Origin: Neonectria sp. B-13
Taxonomy: Eukaryota > Ascomycota > Sordariomycetes > Hypocreales > Nectriaceae
NCBI GenBank assembly: GCA_002682825.1
Contig: NOKP01000001.1
Coordinates: 3,599,296-3,663,295, forward strand
DNA length: 64,000 bases
Reading direction: 5' to 3'
Of this stretch, positions 20,544-34,840 are shown one piece after another; positions within the stretch are counted from its first letter, which is position 1, and each line of letters begins with the position of its first letter. Under the pieces are notes generated by a model. That model did not search any database and was not told the origin of the DNA. It saw only the letters and a program-made list of their open reading frames with translations. The position numbers and the translations under genes were made by a program.

Positions 20544-21569
20544 GATGTCTTCGTACCGGCGCGGACGTGCACCGCACCGTTTGGAAATGCAGGGTTTATA
20601 AAAAGGGCGAAGGGAGGGTTCTGTATTCGTGGCGGAAGAGTTTTGGCGGACGGCGGACGGCTTGCGTTTGTACGGAGGTATGTTGGGTTGCTCGTCCTCG
20701 AGGCGGGCGCGGGCAGAAGCACTTTTTGGAGGAGCTGGTGCAGGACACGCGCTACGCCTGATTAGGCACGCAAGGTGCAGAACTCCAGGCGAAGGGCACG
20801 CGATGATTCGGAGTTTCATGGCAGATCATGAAATGGCGGGCCGTCGCCGCCGGCCGTCTTTGGTGTCTCTTTACGTGTACGCTTGTATAGTCTCCCTATT
20901 CGAAGTAGTTGCGGATTTTGCAGGAATTACAAGCTGGTTCTGGCAGAACACATTGTTTTACTTTGGCTGCTCTTCAGCATCGACGAAAAACAACGGCCAA
21001 CCTTTTTGGCTCGAGGTTTTGCACCCTTCCCTCTCCGACACTTGCAACACTTCGCACACCCAAGAGGCACTCCGTAGACATTGATAGGGCTACAAGTACA
21101 AATTTACGAGTACTATATAGATTGACTCAACAAAGTTGAAACTGCTTTTGAGAACGGGTTCCTTGAAAATAAGCTACCCTAGAGACAAATTTGTCGGTGA
21201 AGTGGAACTAGCGAGGTTCAGTTGACAGACAGGCGTGAACAAACAGCGACGACGTCAAGAGCAGGCGGTGAGCGGGAACAAGATTGAAACAGAGCCGCAC
21301 AACAGAAGCCCGCCGCAACTGAGGGAAGCAGCACTAAGACAGCATGAACATTCAGACCACAACTTCCACGCAGTTTAAGATCACAAGAATGCTACGCAGG
21401 GCCAGGCTGTACCGCAAGCAATACGCATGAGCGCGGAGAGAGCGGGGCAACGAGGTCGTATCTTCACCCACACAATAATTGAAGGTCCTGCAGTCGTGAG
21501 AAAAAGAACATCTTCTTCACCACCCAGGCAAGCCTGAGATAGCAATGAAAAGTTGAGCTCAGCGAAGTT
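20544..21569. other. Intergenic region between LSM8 and U2 snRNA
   Basis: It contains the LSM8 promoter (next to 20543) and, at the right, the sequence downstream of U2 on the minus strand. Short open frames show no domain. No further RNA gene is recognised. Confidence 0.5.
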
Positions 21570-21753
21570 CGCGTCACCTGGAGGCAGTGTAATACCAGGG
21601 ACACAGTGGGTGGAATCATGTGCAAGCACAGAGGAAACCTCCCGAGAACCAAAAATAGGAATAATCAATGTTGGTCTCCTTAGAGACCTTTCAGAGATTA
21701 AACTGAAAAGAACAGATACTACACTTGATCTAAGCCAAAAGGCAAAGAGAGCT
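21570..21753 (-). ncRNA. U2 spliceosomal snRNA
   Basis: The minus strand reads the near-invariant U2 5' part: CTCTTTGCCTTTTGGCTTAG, then ATCAAGTGTAGTATCTGTTC, which contains the branch-site-pairing GUAGUA (plus-strand 21717-21722). Stem-loop II follows and then the Sm site AUUUUUGG (plus-strand 21649-21656). The 3' stem-loop IV is visible as CCTGG-loop-CCAGG near 21577-21599, with the conserved GGTATTACACTGCCTCC loop. Both ends are estimated: the 5' end by alignment to known U2 starts, the 3' end just after stem IV. U2 pairs with intron branch sites, matching the CTAAC/CTGAC elements used throughout this window. Confidence 0.95.
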
Positions 21754-22373
21754 AAGGAGAAAGGAAAGAAAAATAGAAGAGCGGCGAGTGAGCGAGAAAT
21801 TTATACTTGAATATGCGGGCGGTGAATGAGGGCTGGCGGCAGAATTTGCGTGGTGGGGGACGAGCGCTTGGCCTGAGGTTGACTTACATCTCAGGTTGAC
21901 CCAAGGCACGAACTTGGTGGGACTCCATCGTTTGCATTAAGACCATGGGTGCCTGGATACTACTAGCTTAGGAGGTTCATTGGTAATTATGCACGGAACA
22001 TGGATCGTTGAATGGGCTCATGACCGAGCTAATTGATGTCTGACTGGTTCCCGCGTACCTCCCGCGTACCAGCGGGTGGAATAAGCAGACCGACAAGCTT
22101 GAAGCTTTCAGCCAAGTTTCCCTGATTTGACTCCTATGGATATTATCTGTTCGTATGCTGATCCGTTTCCTGGAAATTTTGCCGTGACTGCGCACCAGCT
22201 TAATGTACGCTACCTTACTCCGTATTTACGGTAGTAGGCAGCACTCGGTAGACCACTGGTGGGTTCCTTTGCTGTCGCCTTCAGCCTCAAGGCACCACCA
22301 CTGACTGTATGACCACACAGCATTTCACTATGCAACCATTCTCACTATCGCCCCTTCATCGCCGTCGCCATGA
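21754..22373. other. Intergenic region, U2 promoter side
   Basis: It holds the U2 upstream region at its left end and the 3' flank of the HeLo-like gene at its right end. A directly repeated CCCGCGTACC occurs twice near 22050-22075. No gene is seen. Confidence 0.5.
21799..21805 (-). promoter_or_regulatory. TATA-like element upstream of U2 snRNA
   Basis: On the minus strand TATAAAT lies about 46-52 bases upstream of the estimated U2 5' end. The position is a little far for a standard TATA box but plausible if the RNA start is a few bases upstream of the estimate. Confidence 0.45.
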
Positions 22374-24267
22374 TCAAATCACCAACTCGTTTAACCGCTC
22401 AAGGATCACCTCATAGTAACGTACGCCGAGATGGATACCGTCTGGATCAGCCGCTGCCTGTTGTGCGGCGTCACCGCCAAAGTCTTCGTTGTCCTCGTCT
22501 AGGCAAGTCAGGCAGGAGAGCACGACCCGTGAATACCTCTCGCCCATGGCCTGCGGGAGCCGATCCCGAGCAAGCTGCTCCATGAATTCCTTGGCCTCGA
22601 AACCCATGGCACCGGAACCATTATTCCGGCGTCGAGCATCACTGCCTGACTGTGTCAACCTTGTCGCGAGGTCAAGAATGGGTCCGCTGGGGCTGGGTGC
22701 GTCAGAAGGGTAGTCGACAAAGGACTCCCAAAGGCCAATTTCGAGCAGGCAAACACCGAGACTATAAATGTCGTGCTGCATGCGGTACATGTCCTCCGGG
22801 TTCTCTCCCTGGCGGCTTGGATGTCGGTAGATGTTCTCGTACCAGGAATTGTCGCCCTGAAGGCTTGTGACGCCATCAGCGGAGCGAAACCGATCAAACC
22901 CGACGAGGAAGGTCGCACTACGAGAGGACTCGAGATCTTCTAGGAAAAGGATAGACTCGGGGCTAATGCTCTTGTGGACGAATTTGAAGGTGTGAACATA
23001 ACTGATAGACTTGGCTAGCTCCTGCGCGATACGAACACGACGAGTGACGGATAGAGCAGCCCCTCTGTCTCCAGGGTACAGGATGAGGACCTGACGCAAG
23101 CTCTGGGGTACCTCCATGCCGTCCGGGATCCGAAAGAAGAGGTCAAAGGAGAGGATACGGGAAGGCTGGCGGGGATCGGTTCTTCGCATGGCGCCCTTGC
23201 AGCTGAGGAGGCCAAACGTCATGGGATCGGCACGGGAGAGCCTCTGCGCCAGGTCGCGAACGTCGTTTGTCATGGCATCGGTGTTTCCAGACTTGCACCT
23301 CAAGGAGTCGACGATGAACCAGCGATCGCTGGAGCCGCGGCGGCGGGCCGCCTTAGCCTTTGAGTAAGGTATGGGTGTGAAATCGAAGGCCGTCGAAGGG
23401 AGAAATATGGACTGGTGACGGCCATCAGGACGGATGGCAGTCCTGATGTCGTTGGCCAAGGAGAGTGGAGAGGTTTGCTGCAGTCTCGTGGTCAGTGCGA
23501 AGTTTGGTCGAGGCTGGTGAGGTTGCGGCCGTGGTGAATGACTCCCGGACCCGAACGGCGATGGAGGGGGAACAGGCGAAACAGGCCGTGGTGATGACCC
23601 AGGTCTGTCCAAGAATTGTTGGCCTGGTGGGGGAATGGGCGACACAGGCCGTGGTGGTGGCCCCGGTCTAGCCAAGAACTGCTGGCTTCGTGATTGATCT
23701 TGCACCATGGCTTTGCGCAGCTGGCTGTCGATGACGGGACTCGCTATGCACATGATGAGGTACCACGAGGGATCGAAGCGTCGCTGCCATTCCTCCAGGT
23801 CCCGGATCACGCTGTCCAGGGCGTCCTTGACGAAGGCATACTTGCCTCTCCGAACTCCCCTGGAGAAACCAAAGAAGCCGGGCCTGACGTCACCGCCATT
23901 CTTCTTCTTTGCTACTAAGATACCCTCGAGGCTGGTGTTTGCGGACGAGAGCTTGGTTGCGAGGACGCTGAGGGCACTGTCCAGGACGCGGCGATGCTCG
24001 GCGTCAAGGACGGGACCCAGAGGTTGAATGAAGTCGACCTGGATCCGCGTGCGAGTCCAGCAGTTCTCGACTATGGTGATGCGCTCCGACACTTCCTCGT
24101 TTGCGGCCTTGTAGTTGTCGCACGTTTCTACTATGAACGCTATGAGCCTGAGTTGATATTAGCATCGACGATGATAGTGGTGGGGGCGGGGCCAGAAGTC
24201 GAGGAGAGGAGAGGAGTACCTACTTGGCGCAAAGCTCAACGGTCGATATGATGTTGCCCACGTCCAT
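22374..24267 (-). CDS. HeLo-like helical-bundle protein with C-terminal pseudokinase (MLKL-like architecture)
   Basis: Two exons (24224-24267 and 22374-24147; 76-nt intron), 605 residues starting MDVGNIISTVELCAK. Residues 1 to about 155 form an amphipathic helical region with the look of the HeLo/HeLo-like cell-death domains of fungi. A Pro-rich linker (about 165-230) contains two copies of a 21-residue unit (QQFLARPGPPPRPVSPIPPP type). From about 270 a kinase-like fold follows, but there is no glycine loop, HRD is replaced by VHKSISPES (about 405-413), and DFG by GFD (431-433), while the YRHP and DIYSLG positions of a kinase C-lobe are kept. It is thus a pseudokinase. The order helical bundle then pseudokinase is that of the animal necroptosis executor MLKL. 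Related proteins are frequent in filamentous ascomycetes; their role is mostly inferred. Divergent from the active kinase next door. Confidence 0.8.
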
Positions 24268-24768
24268 CTTCTGAAGCAATCACAGCTACTCGAGAGAATG
24301 GTTGATGAATGGGATGAGTCGAATCGATCTCGAGTGAGGCAGCCTGACACATACATACTGGGAAGGGATTGCGAACTACATGCTGGAAGCGCCTTGCCGC
24401 CGCCCTGCATGGCGCCGCCTAGCCGGATGGAGCTGGACACTTGGTGGGGAGACGGCGGCCTCACAGGCAATAGTCAATACTTCACAGCCCTGTGCGGCTG
24501 AGCGCCGTGCCAAAACCTGATTTGACTGAGGTGCAGGCGCTGCGACAGACCTGGATGATGGCTCAGTTCGTTCCCTCCATCTTCCCTTTCTTCGCCTCGT
24601 CCAGAATTAACTTGTCCGGGCTCTGCGGTGTGTTTCTTGTCAGTGTCGTTGTCGGCGTCTTTTGCTTGTGCTGTACGATGCAAGCGACAAAGACATGTAC
24701 GTTCTCACCTTCAGGATCCACATGAGAGCGCATGTAGCCTGCTGGCACCTAGCATCACACCCGCTTGC
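24268..24768. promoter_or_regulatory. Shared divergent promoter of pseudokinase and kinase genes
   Basis: These 501 bp separate the start codons of the HeLo-like/pseudokinase gene (minus) and the kinase gene (plus). Both promoters must lie here, so co-regulation is plausible. No TATA box or clear symmetric site was picked out. Confidence 0.6.
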
Positions 24769-27700
24769 ATGAGACCAACGGCGCTCATGATGAGCCCGCA
24801 AGGCCAGGATCATGGCCAACAGCCTCAACATCAGCTTTCGAACCAGCATCACCGAGTCCCGGATCTAGTCCGCGACTCTCAACTGAACACCCGCTTTCTC
24901 CCCGGTGGCGTGACCCAGCATACCGTCCATGTGACGTCTAACCACTCCAGCCGAAGGCGGAGGATCCGCGTCGAGGAGACCTGGCACCGAGAGCGAGAGC
25001 TTGGAAATGGCACCTTTGGCCGTGTATGGCTCCAGAGATGCGCCTCGGGACCTGCGACTGGGAGTCTCCGAGCCGTTAAGGAGATGCAAAAGGATCCAGC
25101 GCTGCCCGTGGATTACACGAGAGAGCTGGAGGCTATGGCCAAGTTTTCTCACGAGAAAGTGCGGTGTTCCGATGATCAAGGGCTCATAACTTGTGGAAGC
25201 TTTGCTGACTCCCTCCTCTCAAGTACGTTCACTGTTTCGTCAAATGTCACGGCTGGTACATGTCCGAGAATATGGTCTTTATCGCTATGGAGCACCTCGA
25301 GCACGGCGACTTGCAAAAGTACCTAAATCAGCCCTTCCCCGAGAGCCAGGCCAAAGAGATTGCCTCGCAACTTGCAGAAGGTCTTATGTATCTGCACGAC
25401 AATGGCTTCGCTCACCGGGACCTTAAGCCAGCGGTGCGTAACACTATGATACTCTGAACGATACTGTTCTAAGTTGAAAAACTAACATGATCGGCTCTCG
25501 CTGCTATAGAACATTCTTGTCCATCGGCCTGGACCTAATTGGTGGGTAAAGATTGGCGACTTCGGCATCTCCAAGCGTGCAGAGCAAGAGAATACAGCCT
25601 TGCGGACTTTGATCGGGACGGAGGGTTACTTGGCTCCAGAGATAATCGGCTTCGTTTTCAATCAGGACTCGTCATCGTCCGACCCATTTTCGTACACCTT
25701 CGCCGTTGACATGTGGGCACTGGGCGAGCTCACGTTCCGCCTAATCGCCCAGCGTCCCGCCTTTCCTAACCGACAAGACCTATTCAACTGCGTTGTCCGA
25801 GGGTACCCGTTTCCAATGCCAGCCCTGCAAGCTAAGGACGCGAGCGAAAACTGCTGTGACTTCATAATGAAGTCTATGATAGCCGACCCGGAAAAACGTC
25901 TGACAGCACATGAGGCCACTGCCCATATCTGGATACAGACGTCAAGACCATCATCGCGAGCTAGCTCTACGTCGTCAAGATTGTGAGTGATGAAGAGATG
26001 CCAACCATGGTCACATCAGCCGTCTGATAGAAACGAAACTAACAGCTGCGCTTCAAATCTAGGATGTCTGAGGTGCTGACCATTAGTTCCAACCCGTCAG
26101 TTCAAAATGCGCACTTGGCCGGTACACCGTCAACCTCGCAGTTGATAAGCCCGTTCGAGGACACGGCTCAATGGAGCACTGGTATTCAGGAACCTCAACA
26201 CCAGCTGTCGACGAGTCCGTTCGAGAACACGGCACAATGGAGCACTGGATTCCTGGAACCTCAACAAGCTCAAGCTGCCCAGCAGAGGTTAAGCACTAGT
26301 ACTTATATACAGCCACAGGACGCAGATAGAGTCAACTTAAGTTCACAGGAACTGCCCAATAGTCAGCGTTGGAGTGGCCCTCCCACCCCTTCACTGACGC
26401 CTCAGCCACCTCAGCCTACCCAGTCTCCAGGGTTTCCAGAAACAGCACAACCAACCCTGGTCTCACAGGTCCCGGCCATCCAGCAGCTGAAAACTTTGAC
26501 ACCTGGCTTAATCCAGAGTTCTTCTCAGCAGTTCCCGCATGTTGCCGACTCCTCAACTTCGACTGAGGCGCCAGCGACTGAGTATCAACCTCTATTTCAC
26601 GATGGGCAAGCGGATTCCAGGACAGAAGTACCTGTGAACGATACGCAATCTTTAAGTATAACTGATGCTGGGTACTCCACTCACTCTGGCTCGATAGTAT
26701 ACGCCGAAGATGACGTTGATAAAAGTGCTGAAGAGGCTTTGCCGTGGGCTCGCCCGATTAGCATGCCACCGGAGTATTACCCGTATAAACCCCGACGAGA
26801 GGAGAGTTACTCATTGTCCAACTTGGCGGAGGCAACAATGAGAGCGAAAGCGCAAGTGGAAGCAGCGCAGTTGGAAGTAGAGGAAGTGAAGAAGCAAGAG
26901 GCAGAGGCTGAAGTTAAAGCGAGGTTATTGAAACATAAGGAGGAGAAGGAGGAGTATGACAGGTGGTTGAATCGTAAAAAGATGCAACGACGAAAGCTGT
27001 CTCGCGAGCTGTCTAAACTGCAGAGCGAGTATGAAGCTCATAAGTCGAAATATGAACAACGGAGGCTCCAGGAGGACAACGTGGAGAGGGATGAACACTA
27101 CAGAGCTGCAGGACACAATATGCCTCCACTTCAGAACACTTTTGAAGCTCAACAACGGAAGCATGAGCAATGGAAGCTCGCGGAGGGGAAGGGATACGAG
27201 GTTTTCAGCACTGAAAGCGAGGAACAGCAACGAAACCGACCAACGGAAACTGACAAATTCGACGCCTTCGAGTCTTCTCGAACTGACATTGATGCCCCAA
27301 GCGCCGCCATACATGCTTCTGGCAGCAAAGAGTACTCACTTCACTCCACCCGTTATCGGATAGGGACTCAGACACAAAGTTCACTGCCCGAGTCAGGGAA
27401 ACAATCGAGCATGTTCGACACCTACTCGCCATATGAGATCGACGTCAATACTGAGCGCGAGATGTTCGTCAACGATGTGCCCAACCTCCGCGAGTCGCAC
27501 AGTTCCACCATCAGCACCTACAAGCCCCCTCCTGCCAGACTCATTCCGCCGTCTACGCCCTTCGATGGCGAGTCAACCGAAATCGCAGGGACCGCCCGAC
27601 GGGTTCGGAGCCTCTCGAACTCCTCACAACCGCCCAACTCACCCTTGAAGAGTTCACCCCCATTCACGACGCCTGCGGCTCGTTTGTCACCGGACTTTAC

Positions 27701-28055
27701 GCAGAAGTCAACAGGGCCATCAGCCATCAGCCGGCCACCGAAACCCACGAACAAGGAGGTCACCACGGGAATCGCTCGGTTGGACAAGCTCGACCTCACA
27801 TGGCGCAGCCATATCGGACAGGATCTCCTCAACAAAGGGCTGGACGCCGGCGTGGTGTGGCAGAACTATGAGTTCATCGCAGATTTCTTGGAAGAGAGGC
27901 AGCAGATGATGCCATTCCTGGAGACTCCAGCGCCACCTCCATCACCTGCCGTTGAAATGGTATCGCACTTCGGCGTGAAGGATTTACGTGAACAACCACA
28001 GAGAGATCGAGACAGTGGGTTCCGAGGTTGGTTGAAGAAGAAATTCGTACCATAG
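24769..28055 (+). CDS. Protein kinase with long disordered/coiled-coil tail, next to the HeLo-like pseudokinase
   Basis: Four exons (24769-25158, 25224-25433, 25510-25982, 26063-28055), 1021 residues. Introns of 65, 76 and 80 nt carry CTGAC or CTAAC branch sites. The kinase domain (about 73-345) has all catalytic marks: GNGTFGRV (79-86), Lys104 in AVKEM, HRDLKPANIL with Asp196, DFG (217-219) and APE (242-244); two of these are completed only by splicing. The tail has a 22-residue tandem duplication (PFEDTAQWSTG / PFENTAQWSTG), a Pro/Ser/Gln-rich stretch, a charged coiled coil (about 610-760) with internally similar blocks (SEYEAHKSKYEQRRL, TFEAQQRKHEQWKL), and a basic aromatic end GFRGWLKKKFVP that could touch membranes. 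The exact subfamily is not recognised. Met7 or Met8 are alternative starts. Confidence 0.85.
26151..26270 (+). repeat. 66-nt in-frame tandem duplication in the kinase tail
   Basis: Two adjacent copies with period 66 bases (22 codons); the CCGTTCGAG core starts at 26151 and 26217. Copies differ by a handful of bases, so the duplication is not very recent. Confidence 0.8.
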
Positions 28056-30275: not shown

Positions 30276-31835
30276 TCAGATACCTTCGCCGTCGTTGCGG
30301 CCCCATAGTTTCACCGTGCGATCATGTCCTCCACTGACGATCCACTTCCCGTCCCTGCTGTAGTCCACGCTCGCAACCGGCCCCGTGTGGCCGCTGAGTG
30401 TCTGGACCAACGTCCAATCGTCTGCCGAGAAGATTTTGACGTTCTTGTCGAATCCGCTCGAGACGAAGAACGTCCCAGACTTCTTGGGCAGTTGAGCCCC
30501 CTTCTCGTCGACTCCGGGAGGGATGCCATCAACAGGGTCATCCAGACCCTTGAACCAACGCATGTCGGAAACTAAGCTGGTATGCGCACCGATTCCACCG
30601 GTCCTCTGAACCTTCCGGACATCCCAACACTTGATCCAGCCGTCAGCAGACCCAGTCAAAACTCGGTGTCCATCAGAGCTCCAGTCAAGCGCGTGAATGG
30701 GCTTGATGTGGCCGTCCAGGTGGCCGTCCAGGATCATAACCGTGCGTCCAGACCTTAGATCCCAGATTCTACCGATGCTATCGAGACCTGCACTGGCCAG
30801 CAAGGATCCGTCGGTATTAAAGCTGACAGCGTAGACACCTCGGGAGTGTCCTTCTTGGAGGAGCACCTCTGCGGTCGTTTCCACATCCCATAGGCGCCAT
30901 GATGTGTCCTCGGACGCAGATGCGAGATAGCGGCCGGAGGGGTGGAATTCAGTGCGGCAGACCCGCTGGGAGTGGCCTTGGAGGGTCGATAACGGGGTGT
31001 CCTTGTTCAGCGACCAGAGTTGGATGAGGCCATCAGCACCGCCCGAAGCTAAATTGACCGAGTCTGGGGAGACACCCTGCTCGGGTATGGTGGCACCAGG
31101 GAACCAAGATATGCCGCTGATTTTATTGGTATGGCCGCGGAAGGTCATCTTCTCCGTCATGCTGGGTATCTCGACCAGCTTGACTTGCCCACCCCAGTTG
31201 CCCACGGCTACCAGTTCTCCGTTGGGGGATATCCTGGTCATGCTGAGATTCCTTTCGCCAACAATTTGACTGCCCTGCAGCTCAAACGCTTGCAACCTCT
31301 CCTTAATCTGTTTCCGGAACTTGACTTGTGTGCGTAGAGGAATCGTGGACTCGGCCTTTTGAAACTTGATTCTTCGCTTTGCACGGGGCATCGAATACTC
31401 GGCGAGCTTGATGCGAGCCTGAAGTAGCTCGGGGCCACCTCGCGAATAGAATTCCTCCTCTTGTTCCTCTGCTTCGTCCTCGGCCGCGTCCTCCATGGTG
31501 ATGTCGCCGTTCTCCAGCCCAGCCATCTCCGCCTGGATCGTCAGGAGTTCGCGCAAACGATCTCTGCGATCCACAGGCCCCTCTCCGAAGAGCGTCACGG
31601 GCTCTCCCATCTCTCGCAGCTTGGCCCGGACTCGGCCATCGTCGGTCGGCACAGCTATCGTCGCAGCAAGCCTCTTGCGGTTGAACTGACTTAGGATGGC
31701 GGAGGCTTTCTCGGGGGCAACTCCGGAGCCTCCCATGTGAATATCGTAATCGTGGTCATCGGGGACATCTTCCAAGGCGATCCCTTGGGTTGAGTCGGCT
31801 TCCTCCACGTACGCCTGCCGCGATGGGTGCATCAT
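30276..31835 (-). CDS. PRP4: U4/U6 snRNP protein PRP4 (WD40)
   Basis: Intronless, 519 residues from [12 protein letters not shown]; human PRPF4 is 522. The open frame runs further upstream to 32144 but with no ATG there, so that part is leader. Residues about 70-115 carry the SFM motif ([20 protein letters not shown]) that names the splicing-factor family, then an acidic helix, then a seven-bladed WD40 propeller (about 195-519) with clear GH-x-WD units such as [12 protein letters not shown] and [15 protein letters not shown]4 with PRP3 bridges U4/U6 in the tri-snRNP. One blade junction carries a 12-base in-frame duplication (LDGH twice, at 30708-30731). Confidence 0.93.
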
Positions 31836-33292
31836 CTTGGCGGATGGGCGAGTCGCAAGACGTGGTGGAGAAGCCTTGGTGGATATATTTTCGATGGAGA
31901 GACGTGGTGAAGGGGCTGAACGGGGTCGCGTTCCAAGGGGCACGTGTTGGCGACTGTCGTGAGGTCGAAGTGTCGGAGATGGTGGAATAACTTCAATGAG
32001 TTGGAGCCTGGCTACACCATCGATTGCTCTCTGAGTGGATGCTTTGCAGGCCGGGACGTGAATTTTCTCGGTGACGGTGGTTAGTTTCGCCGAGAGGTTG
32101 CCTGTGGACCTGGCTGGTAGGACCCTGACTGAGGTGACCTCCACCGGATTGAATCACTGAAAGGAAAGCCTGGGGTTTAGTGGATTCTGGCGGAAGTGGC
32201 CGCTAAATCGGGACCCAGTCGTTACTTTCCAGTGCCCACCGCCCCCCGATCGCCACATCCATGCTCCCTGCAGCTTTTTCAAGCAAGTTCGGGCAATCAG
32301 GTTACGGGTGATGTCAGGTCTCCAGACATCCGGCTCGGGCGACGAGCGGCGAGAACCGCCACGATAGAAAAAAGAGTCCACCCTCAAACCTGCTCGAGCA
32401 AGGACAAAAGTCTGTCCACTTGGAGGGAACATGCGAGGGCGGAGCTCAGCCTGATTTAAGCCTTGGGCCGCCGTGCACGATCCATGCTGCCTGAGAGAGA
32501 GGCATTATTTGGCCCGCTCCGTGCCCCGTGGCTCATTTTCTTTCATGGAAGCGGTAACTATTCCCCCCAGATGCTGGCTGTTGGTGCTACGTGTAGTGAA
32601 ATTACGTGCAGCGTTGTTACAGAACAGGGCGAACGCTAGACGTCCGTTCCCGAGCGGGCGGTCGGCGGGCTCCCTGTCCTCCACTGGGCTGCTAAAAAAA
32701 AACCTTGCCCCGCGTGCTGAACCGGGTAAGGCGACGGGGCTCAGGGGGCGCTTTAGGGGGGCGCTGTCAGCGGAGCCCGGGGGGAATTACGCTTGTTACA
32801 GCGTGGTGCAGGGCGCCGCAGCCAGTCAACGCCGCCCAAAAGTCTGCCTGGGTGCGCTGGCGCTCTCACTGGCCCGGGCTTTTCAAGGCCACTGAATGGG
32901 TTTTTTTCTATTAAAAATGTCTCGGCCTCACCTGGATCCAACCTTCCCTTTCCTCCTTTACACCATTTGGTGAACCTACCACGTCACCTACGACTCTCCC
33001 TCTCGCCCTGTACCGCCCGCCAATGCATATAGCAAAGACCGCCGACGTTCGCACTTCATTTTTCCGCTACCAGATGCGTGTTTCGAGCTATCGCCAGATC
33101 CTGCGACACTTCGAATCCGTGCCCCGCGCTGATCCGGAGCGACGACGAGGCTCCCCCTGAATAACTCGACCGCAGCCTGCTGCACTTGTTGACTCTTTGA
33201 CGAGTGTTTGAGTGCTGTAGTTGGTTATTTCACGGGTTGACCGAGCCACCTCCTCTCCTCCTTTACTCCTACTCCTCCCCCCCGACACGACC
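31836..33292. promoter_or_regulatory. Divergent region between PRP4 and the Psk1-type kinase
   Basis: About 1.46 kb. The left 300 bases are an open but ATG-less continuation of the PRP4 frame, i.e. leader. The middle (about 32640-32900) is very GC-rich with a short A-run at 32695-32702. The right end is the CT-rich leader of the kinase gene. No other gene is seen. Confidence 0.5.
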
Positions 33293-34840
33293 ATGATAAG
33301 CCGAGTCCCCGCCGCGGTCACTACCATCCGCGGCTTCCAGGCAACTCCCGTAGCCTCTGGCGATGAGGACTCCGACCACGGCCTTGGAGATACTCCGCGC
33401 ATGCCCACCCGCAGCGGACGTAAGCTTATCCACGATGTCGTCAGCGCGAACTGCAGCCCGACCCTCCGCGCCAGCGGTTCCCCGGCCGTATCGGGCATTG
33501 CCAAGCTCCGACACCAGATGGAGCCCTTGAGCTTGGATGGTTCTTCATCGCCATGCGACTCCATGAGCCGCACCAGCAGCCACCAGGGCCTCGGTCTGGG
33601 TGTTTGCAAGCAGCTGATCAGCCGCTCGCAGAGCCGCGACGACATCCGCAGCGAAACTAGCAGTAACGGCTCGGATAACGGCTCCGTTAGTTACGAGGTC
33701 AATCTCGAAAACGACTTTATTAGTGAGAGTGTTCGCGAGCGCACTGGGTTCAAGCAACCCCTCGAGGGCGGCTTCAACCCGCACCGTAAGATGACGTCGG
33801 AGGACTTTGAATCACTCCGATGTCTTGGCAAGGGTACCTACGGAACGGTGATTTTGGTAAAGCAGCGCGCTACTGGGCGGCTCTACGCGCAAAAGCAATT
33901 TAAGAAAGCGTCCCTGGTGGTTCACAAGAAACTGGTCGAACAGACCAAGACTGAGCGTCAGATCCTCGAATCGGTCAACAGGCACCCGTTCGTGGTCAAG
34001 CTCTTCTACGCCTTCCAAGACCACGAGAAGCTCTACCTGATCCTCGAATATGGACAGGGCGGAGAGCTTTTTACCCATTTGAACATGGAAAAGATGTTTT
34101 CGGAGACTGTTGCGGCCTTCTACATGGCCGAAATGCTCCTCGCCATTGCGCACCTCCACAACGACCTGGGAGTCGTCTACCGCGACCTCAAGCCCGAGAA
34201 CTGCCTGTTGGATGCCGAGGGCCACCTTCTTCTGACGGATTTCGGCCTGTCCAAGGTTGCCGTGGAGCCGTCGGAGGGCTGCAACTCGATGCTGGGAACG
34301 GTTGAGTACATGGCACCCGAGGTTGTGCAGGGGAAGAGATACGGCAGGGCGGTCGACTGGTGGTCGTTTGGCGCTCTGGGATACGATCTGATGACAGGAA
34401 ACCCACCTTTCCGCGGCCAGAATCACGCCAAGATCCAGGAGAACATTGTCAAGCAGAAGCTGGTACTCCCATACTTCCTGAGCCCCGACGCCAAAGACTT
34501 GCTCATCCGGCTTCTGCGCAAGGATCCCAACAAGCGACTGGGAGCGGTGATGCCCAAGGACATGCAGACGATGAAGAAGCACCGGTTCTTCCGCAAGATC
34601 GATTGGAAGAAGCTCGCAGCACGAGAGCTGGAGCCGCCCATCCAGCCCATGATCACGGACCCTGAGCTGGCCGAGAACTTCGCACCTGAGTTCACAGACC
34701 TGTCGCTTAGTCCGGTCCTGACGAGCAAGGACATCTGGCCGCCAAGCGTCCCCAAAGACGACCCATTTGGCGGGTTCAGTTTCGTTGCGTCATCGAGCCT
34801 GCTCGAGAATGATGGCTTCGCGTTCGCGGCGCAGATCTGA
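33293..34840 (+). CDS. AGC-family S6-kinase-like protein kinase (Psk1 type)
   Basis: Intronless, 515 residues from the ATG at 33293 (MISRVPAAVTTIRGF); an upstream in-frame start lacks an ATG. A Ser-rich N-terminus of 165 residues is followed by the kinase domain: GKGTYGTV from Gly179, YRDLKPEN with Asp298, DFG with Asp316, activation loop GTVEYMAPE. An AGC C-terminal extension follows, with a DWKKL turn and a hydrophobic motif GGFSFVASS near 495. Overall it most resembles fission yeast Psk1 and animal p70 S6 kinases, which phosphorylate ribosomal protein S6 under TORC1 control. The activation-loop position for PDK1 is the Ser/Thr just before LGTVEY. Substrate and pathway are inferred from family. 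Confidence 0.85.
   Translation: MISRVPAAVTTIRGFQATPVASGDEDSDHGLGDTPRMPTRSGRKLIHDVVSANCSPTLRASGSPAVSGIAKLRHQMEPLSLDGSSSPCDSMSRTSSHQGLGLGVCKQLISRSQSRDDIRSETSSNGSDNGSVSYEVNLENDFISESVRERTGFKQPLEGGFNPHRKMTSEDFESLRCLGKGTYGTVILVKQRATGRLYAQKQFKKASLVVHKKLVEQTKTERQILESVNRHPFVVKLFYAFQDHEKLYLILEYGQGGELFTHLNMEKMFSETVAAFYMAEMLLAIAHLHNDLGVVYRDLKPENCLLDAEGHLLLTDFGLSKVAVEPSEGCNSMLGTVEYMAPEVVQGKRYGRAVDWWSFGALGYDLMTGNPPFRGQNHAKIQENIVKQKLVLPYFLSPDAKDLLIRLLRKDPNKRLGAVMPKDMQTMKKHRFFRKIDWKKLAARELEPPIQPMITDPELAENFAPEFTDLSLSPVLTSKDIWPPSVPKDDPFGGFSFVASSSLLENDGFAFAAQI

Follow-up and report, generated by a model that had tools for sequence, protein, structure and literature searches.

Do two neighbouring fungal genes, one encoding an intact protein kinase and the other a helical bundle joined to a dead kinase, constitute a single signalling module of the kind formed by RIPK3 and MLKL in animals? 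The question is raised by a stretch of 64,000 nucleotides from Neonectria sp. B-13 (contig NOKP01000001.1, positions 3,599,296 to 3,663,295; hereafter the window), in which gene A, the bundle-pseudokinase gene, and gene B, the kinase gene, are divergently transcribed. An initial annotation of the window had placed the two genes and the 501-bp gap between them and had reported the catalytic motifs lost from A and kept in B, all of which proved correct. The analyses described here favor, at a probability of about 0.58, the reading that A and B are one two-gene module in which the signalling kinase B switches the executor A in a RIPK3-MLKL-like manner.

The pairing was not confined to the window. 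Loci elsewhere in the genome are labelled by contig (C1, C2, C41 and so on), the window lying at C1:3599296-3663295. A search of the genome with A returned 14 distinct places, with mirror copies counted once, two of them fragments. All four near-complete copies of A (window, C41, C114 and C2) were head-to-head with a kinase of the B family. The copies at C41, C114 and C2 were 44-50% identical to A over 317-356 aligned residues of spliced alignments; their catalytic motifs were dead, and HRD and DFG were present in the kinases beside them, with DLG in place of DFG in the C41 kinase, which was read in part only. Two phase-0 introns like those of B were found in the kinases of C114, C2, C48 and C96. 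Four more distant relatives of A (C66, C95, C72 and C54), three of which contain a Pfam HeLo domain, were likewise divergent to a kinase, though not one of the B type. In these kinases HRD was replaced by HGD (C66, C95, C54) or HKD (C72), and C54 had DFA in place of DFG. The nearest genome relatives of the C66 kinase were those of C39, C95 and C54 (27-40% identity), the B family being absent among the matches listed, and the nearest genome matches of the C72 kinase were generic kinases. Apparently, therefore, three kinase types are paired with such dead kinases.

A divergent kinase at 8 of the 14 places would be expected by chance with a probability of ~1e-17, and at 4 of the 10 places remaining without the window-type copies with a probability of 1.5e-8. 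The chance model used 141 kinase matches in 60.9 Mb, which gives a divergent kinase within 2.5 kb at ~0.3% of places. These odds are rough, as the places are not independent, the kinase lists give minimum numbers and the 141 do not include the C54 kinase; that kinase was missed in the first kinase listing and found by a search made after C66 had been seen, which favors the finding of pairs. In the kinase listings, one of which scored 123 of 317 candidates, no divergent kinase was seen at C1:4352373, C1:3860854 or C94:1045601, nor at the fragments C54:254280 (58 residues, 44% identity, with a stop) and C39:5223249. The C50 kinase, 3 kb off on the same strand, was rejected as a partner and looks coincidental.

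Linkage was also detected in other fungi. Among the 23 organisms present in both lists of relatives, 11 carried A and B on one contig (~1.4 expected), same-contig status being inferred from equal contig size and organism. The count was made on rows with an organism name only (106 for A, 114 for B), with three joined models excluded and the strains of a species pooled. The lists hold the best 120 of many relatives, and the unlinked organisms may own other paralogues. Locus tags were consecutive in six organisms: N. ditissima (g8502/g8503), Cylindrodendrum hubeiense (g8852/g8853), Diatrype stigma (011177/011178), Endocarpon pusillum (07589/07590), Polycauliona sp. (006071/006070) and Psora testacea (000674/000675). 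The five organisms looked up represent the Sordariomycetes, Eurotiomycetes, Lecanoromycetes and, through a single same-contig case, the Dothideomycetes. Moreover, distances in the A and B trees were correlated (r 0.83 over 16 pairs, with none of 5000 permutations as high), and remained so without the two closest relatives (r 0.78, 0 of 5000). This mirror-tree comparison used 16 of 18 pairs, all chosen by linkage; C41 and Monosporascus were left out because of their short kinase pieces. In the A tree as in the B tree, the C2 and C41 copies grouped not with the window but with Purpureocillium, Monosporascus and Aspergillus floccosus, indicating that the match reflects more than the species tree. 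Conserved linkage, proposed in the initial annotation as a check, was thus strongly upheld by the own-genome pairs, the shared contigs and the matched trees; the linked active kinase had rightly been singled out as the unusual part, and it recurs.

Single gene models containing both proteins were found in Talaromyces pinophilus (P0211), Purpureocillium takamizusanense (P0309) and Monosporascus (P0301). The kinase comes first in P0211 and in P0309, which is without part of the bundle, and A comes first in P0301. These models may be annotation merges instead of real fusions. Given the same-strand joined models, the head-to-head layout was rejected as a general conserved trait and is kept for the Neonectria genome only. 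A prediction of the A-B complex by way of P0211 was discarded, as MAFFT had apparently aligned kinase rows to the pseudokinase (rows of 14-18% identity). In Fusarium decemcellulare, one model of 1428 aa (P0330) combines an A-type protein with a HET domain, by merge or fusion.

The products of both genes have a kinase fold, and the genes diverge from a short spacer, as would be expected had they become neighbors through tandem kinase duplication or been held together by a shared promoter with no joint function. This explanation is very improbable: the two are not sister sequences, B being CAMK/CHK2-like and A nearest to TYK2 and IRAK4, for which reason an origin by tandem duplication was rejected. 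None of the 120 listed relatives of A matched the kinase domain of B at >60 bits, and linkage occurs in other orientations, across distant classes and with other kinase types.

Gene A is 94% identical over its full length to AK830_g8502 of Neonectria ditissima (P0001). A Pfam scan of A yielded no domain above threshold (DUF7580 at E 1.7e-4, kinase models below the cut-off), yet sequence and predicted structure place a kinase fold devoid of catalytic residues C-terminal to a helical bundle, as in MLKL. Within the dead activation loop, the 209 family rows, the window included, had Thr (194), Ser (14) or Ala (1) at the position of Thr442, and each of the four own-genome copies with a B-type kinase partner retained T442. 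As read from the alignment, such a pattern would be expected of a site phosphorylated by B; a structural role would also be possible.

Residues 1-164 of P0001 were predicted to form four long and two short helices, with predicted local distance difference test (pLDDT) values mostly of 80-95. Helix 1 of A contains the most hydrophobic 19-residue window of the protein (Kyte-Doolittle (KD) score 1.81, residues 3-21). The corresponding windows of own-genome HeLo loci scored 1.39-1.98, with one exception (0.82), and the best window fell within the first 12 residues in just 45% of 188 N-termini, some of them from truncated models. Distant homologues of the A pseudokinase at C72, C50 and C54 carry a Pfam HeLo domain in the same open frame. 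Other weak Pfam matches among 18 A-family N-termini included ULD_2 in 4 of the 18 (best E 2.5e-4) and single matches to others, and an A-family N-terminus matched a 14-3-3 stretch in a PDB search (E 0.014). The listings of a structure search with the A model were filled by the kinase domain, so that the absence of MLKL from them carries no information. On the strength of the modelled helices and the distant homologues, we infer that the N-terminus of A may be a HeLo-like bundle, short of proven membership by sequence. Of the earlier kinase/pseudokinase-executor reading, then, the linkage stands and the HeLo-like fold stands in part: a helical bundle is predicted and HeLo is found in distant homologues, but A itself lacks a HeLo match in Pfam and scored weakly when profiles were compared.

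Active kinases are often controlled by pseudokinases, as LKB1 is by STRAD and JH1 of JAK by the JH2 domain, and this was counted in favor of a different reading, in which A would serve kinase B as an allosteric regulator or scaffold, its bundle would merely localize or oligomerize it, and no cell would die. In a profile search with the A pseudokinase, TYK2 and IRAK4 were the top matches and MLKL was not among the best 60 of 597 rows, and the HeLo homology of A itself is unproven. Nevertheless, we regard such a regulator as unlikely, because genuine HeLo domains share a frame with homologous pseudokinases, helix 1 is the most hydrophobic stretch of A, and a near-invariant Thr/Ser in a dead loop fits a substrate better than a regulator.

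Gene B, with an orthologue of 57% identity over 99% (P0121), encodes a clear Pkinase domain (E 1.8e-50) and no other Pfam domain above threshold. It is catalytically complete, and the HRDLK, N and DFG positions were invariant or nearly so across 43 kinase sequences. Its best PDB sequence matches were CaMK1G, RAD53 and CHK2. By sequence, B is a CAMK/CHK2-like kinase outside the RIPK/TKL group, with no sign of homology to RIPK3, so that the likeness to RIPK3-MLKL drawn in the initial annotation holds as an analogy and not as kinase homology. No RHIM was noticed in B by eye; no motif model was run for it.

The tail of B is long and predicted to be mostly disordered. Between Neonectria sp. B-13 and N. 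ditissima the tail is 47-65% identical, depending on the segment, the B kinase domain 87% and the A pseudokinase 96%. Judged from these identities, the tail would be evolving fast, as a sensor or a merely disordered region would. C-terminal fusions of B-type kinases include WD40 (Polycauliona, Psora), TPR (Penicillium solitum) and SH3 (Aspergillus floccosus); WW or NACHT-WD40 is fused to B relatives lacking observed linkage to A. The divergence of the tail, the divergent two-gene layout at eight own-genome places, WD40 repeats that are near-identical by eye in P0190 and P0129, and the modelling of P0330 together with a HET-domain protein would also suit a self/non-self (het) or poison-antidote locus, in which B restrains A and A kills when its partner is mismatched or missing. 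As disordered tails commonly diverge fast, this was judged a little less likely even than a regulatory role for A.

Other composite models were observed among the B-type proteins. P0129 (Fusarium keratoplasticum), which is named NACHT, combines an N-terminal B-type kinase with numerous WD40 repeats that are near-identical. The paired kinases P0153 (Endocarpon pusillum) and P0132 (Diatrype stigma) contain, respectively, a chitin synthase fragment and an Msb1/Mug8 domain, each an integrated bait or an annotation merge. SH3 occurs in the B-type kinases P0124, P0125 and P0167 and WW in P0123, and the linker of A (23472-23696) is proline-rich. SH3 and WW domains bind proline-rich stretches; the linker and the SH3 or WW domains of B-type kinases are a possible docking pair.

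Behind the kinase domain, a loose WST pattern, [TSA][AG]xW[STPQAN], was found in 49 of 103 B-type tails versus 3.4 in shuffled tails. The scan covered the first 150 residues after the kinase, and 18 of 121 B-type proteins were left out for their short tails. The W is present at >=90% (at least 90%) in 43 kinases, and tandem repeats were seen by eye, two in B, three in P0190 (Psora testacea) and four in P0122.

Several observations weigh against A and B acting as a kinase and its executor. A and B were not on one contig in 12 of the 23 organisms; the pair is not divergent throughout, since A and B would lie on one strand in the joined models; and the A and B of C114 took different places in the two trees, at low support. 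For the bundle, none of 52 A-family members matched Pfam HeLo (PF14479) or PF17111 at E 0.01, and the 18 N-termini alone gave one match to PF17111, at E 0.036 (25 of 28 families listed). Alignment of the A N-terminus by hhalign was likewise weak (P 0.0035 for the PF17111 type and 0.051 for the HeLo type, probability <10%). PF17111, PigL_N in present Pfam, is called HeLo-like in PMC9815663. Thr442 is not at the same column in six distant homologues, three of them (C95, C72 and C66) having kinases of other types as partners and three (C50, C1:4352373 and C1:3860854) no partner found; in 3 of the 6 an S/T lies one or two residues from that column in a loose alignment. Nor is Thr442 alone in its conservation: >85% of rows have S/T at ten further Ser/Thr positions along A, and the loop itself also retains R436, G446 and W450. 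Finally, the WST motif was undocked in the structure model of the B tail and was missing at its usual place in the paired kinases of C114 and C2, though present in that of C41.

Under the favored two-gene reading, the variable C-terminal tail of B would sense non-self or damage. Activated B would then phosphorylate A in the dead activation loop at Thr442, as RIPK3 does MLKL, and phosphorylation would free the N-terminal bundle, whose hydrophobic first helix would enter the plasma membrane and cause the cell or hyphal compartment to die. A CAMK-type kinase would here take the place of RIPK3. Linkage, matched trees, the split between intact and dead kinase, the bundle and the conserved Thr/Ser were computed, and from them we infer phosphorylation, bundle release and killing by analogy with MLKL.

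Table 1. Features of the A/B locus (window coordinates) and of the other kinase/pseudokinase pairs of the genome (contig coordinates).
Feature	Position	Strand	Basis
Gene A, helical bundle (HeLo-like by inference)/proline-rich linker/pseudokinase, 605 aa	22374..24267	-	gene model, N. ditissima orthologue
Gene A exons; intron 24148-24223 (76 bp)	24267-24224, 24147-22374	-	gene model
A residues 1-165, predicted helical bundle	23697..24267	-	structure model of orthologue P0001
A residues 166-240, proline-rich linker, predicted disordered	23472..23696	-	pLDDT <50 at 167-236 of P0001
A residues 241-605, pseudokinase	22377..23471	-	sub-threshold DUF7580/Pkinase matches, kinase fold
A Thr442 codon, dead activation loop, candidate phosphorylation site	22866..22868	-	T/S in 208/209 family rows
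Divergent intergenic region, 501 bp, possible shared promoter	24268..24768		gap between A and B starts
Gene B, serine/threonine kinase and long tail, up to 1021 aa	24769..28055	+	gene model, orthologue P0121
Gene B exons (three introns)	24769-25158, 25224-25433, 25510-25982, 26063-28055	+	gene model
B kinase domain, residues 72-342, two introns inside, all catalytic motifs	24982..25935	+	Pfam, motif reading
First TAQWST motif, B residues 392-397	26163..26180	+	motif reading
Second TAQWST motif, B residues 414-419	26229..26246	+	motif reading
C41 pair	A 236258-237722, kinase 238542-239408	A -, kinase +	
C114 pair	A 503806-505323, kinase 505935-507001	divergent	
C2 pair	A 724258-725424, kinase 726315-727458	divergent	
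C66 pair	kinase frame 141133-142590, HeLo frame from 142887	kinase -, HeLo +	
C95 pair	kinase 30832-32535, pseudokinase 32825-34474	kinase -, pseudokinase +	
C72 pair	kinase 624801-626681, partner 627555-629378	kinase -, partner +	
C54 pair	kinase frame from 246094, HeLo-pseudokinase 245056-243725	kinase +, HeLo-pseudokinase -	

Further loci were noted in passing. At C35, a DUF7580 pseudokinase (1537140-1537901, -) is divergent to a kinase match (1541556-1542182, +), possibly a ninth pair. At C39, a HeLo gene (5750452-5751027, +) and a C66-type kinase (5756312-5756653, -) lie within 6 kb, facing and not divergent. At C96:39354-44800, a B-family kinase is divergent to a HeLo gene (PF14479, 68.7 bits), behind which NACHT-like sequence was recognized by eye in broken frames; this is perhaps a HeLo-NLR remnant beside a B-type kinase. 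Behind the C114 kinase (~507850-508050) a Cys/His pattern resembles a RING finger, by eye only. Mirror pairs of matches with coordinates summing to contig size + 1 occurred on C41, C114, C72 and C95, which were read as full palindromes; such contigs are probably artefactual products of assembly, by which the 60.9 Mb would be inflated. Just past the 3′ end of A lies a U2 spliceosomal RNA gene (21563-21755, -; Rfam RF00004, 159.5 bits).

With RIPK3-MLKL (PMC12881547) the Neonectria pair shares an active kinase, a bundle-pseudokinase protein and a phosphorylatable regulatory loop; it differs in that the kinase is CAMK/CHK2-like and not a RIPK, the genes are physically paired, and killing and phosphorylation are putative. 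Plant MLKL-like proteins also join a helical bundle to a kinase-like domain, but no paired kinase gene is described for them in the available part of PMC12881547. The fungal NLR/HeLo pairs nwd2/het-S and pnt1/hellp (PMC7885112, PMC10197012) likewise combine a sensor with a HeLo(-like) executor, roles that are putative in the present case; there the NLR templates an amyloid motif on the effector, whereas in the A/B pair a protein kinase stands in the place of the NLR and the executor carries a pseudokinase. Amyloid motifs occupy non-equivalent positions in mammalian and fungal pathways (PMC5485727). In fungal gasdermin/protease clusters an enzyme gene lies beside a membrane-killing effector gene, the enzymes being fused to WD40, TPR or ANK; the effector folds are unrelated, and proteolysis stands where phosphorylation is proposed here. 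The C-terminal domains of B-type kinases recall the range of sensors on fungal NLRs and gasdermin proteases (PMC10197012). The sensor of known fungal death clusters is an NLR or a protease, and B is neither, its kinase domain alone exceeding the Pfam threshold. Among Sordariales NLRs, a kinase domain is found in only 12, of which nine are C-terminal, CHK2-like and discussed as integrated decoys (PMC12258605).

HELL-pseudokinase proteins as such are already in print (PMC12881547); A seems to share their architecture, and the text consulted mentions no active kinase linked to them. A wider study of fungal HeLo/4HB (four-helix bundle) proteins has been called for (PMC12881547). A kinase/HeLo-pseudokinase gene pair was not found in the literature searched, subscription journals and preprints lying outside that search. 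HELL-pseudokinases and two-gene death modules with an NLR or protease are known; the kinase partner appears to be the new element. More broadly, and at somewhat less than even odds, the module may be ancient and repeatedly rebuilt, with NLR-like sensor kinases of apparently three types phosphorylating HeLo(-like) pseudokinases, so that the logic of RIPK3-MLKL would exist independently in fungi. Fungal necroptosis-like death has been described as amyloid signalling from NLR to HeLo, and a conserved, multi-copy pair would supply a kinase step. The gene pairs would allow the release of a killer helix bundle by pseudokinase phosphorylation to be tested in organisms other than animals, and would add new candidates for loci of allorecognition or antiviral defense.

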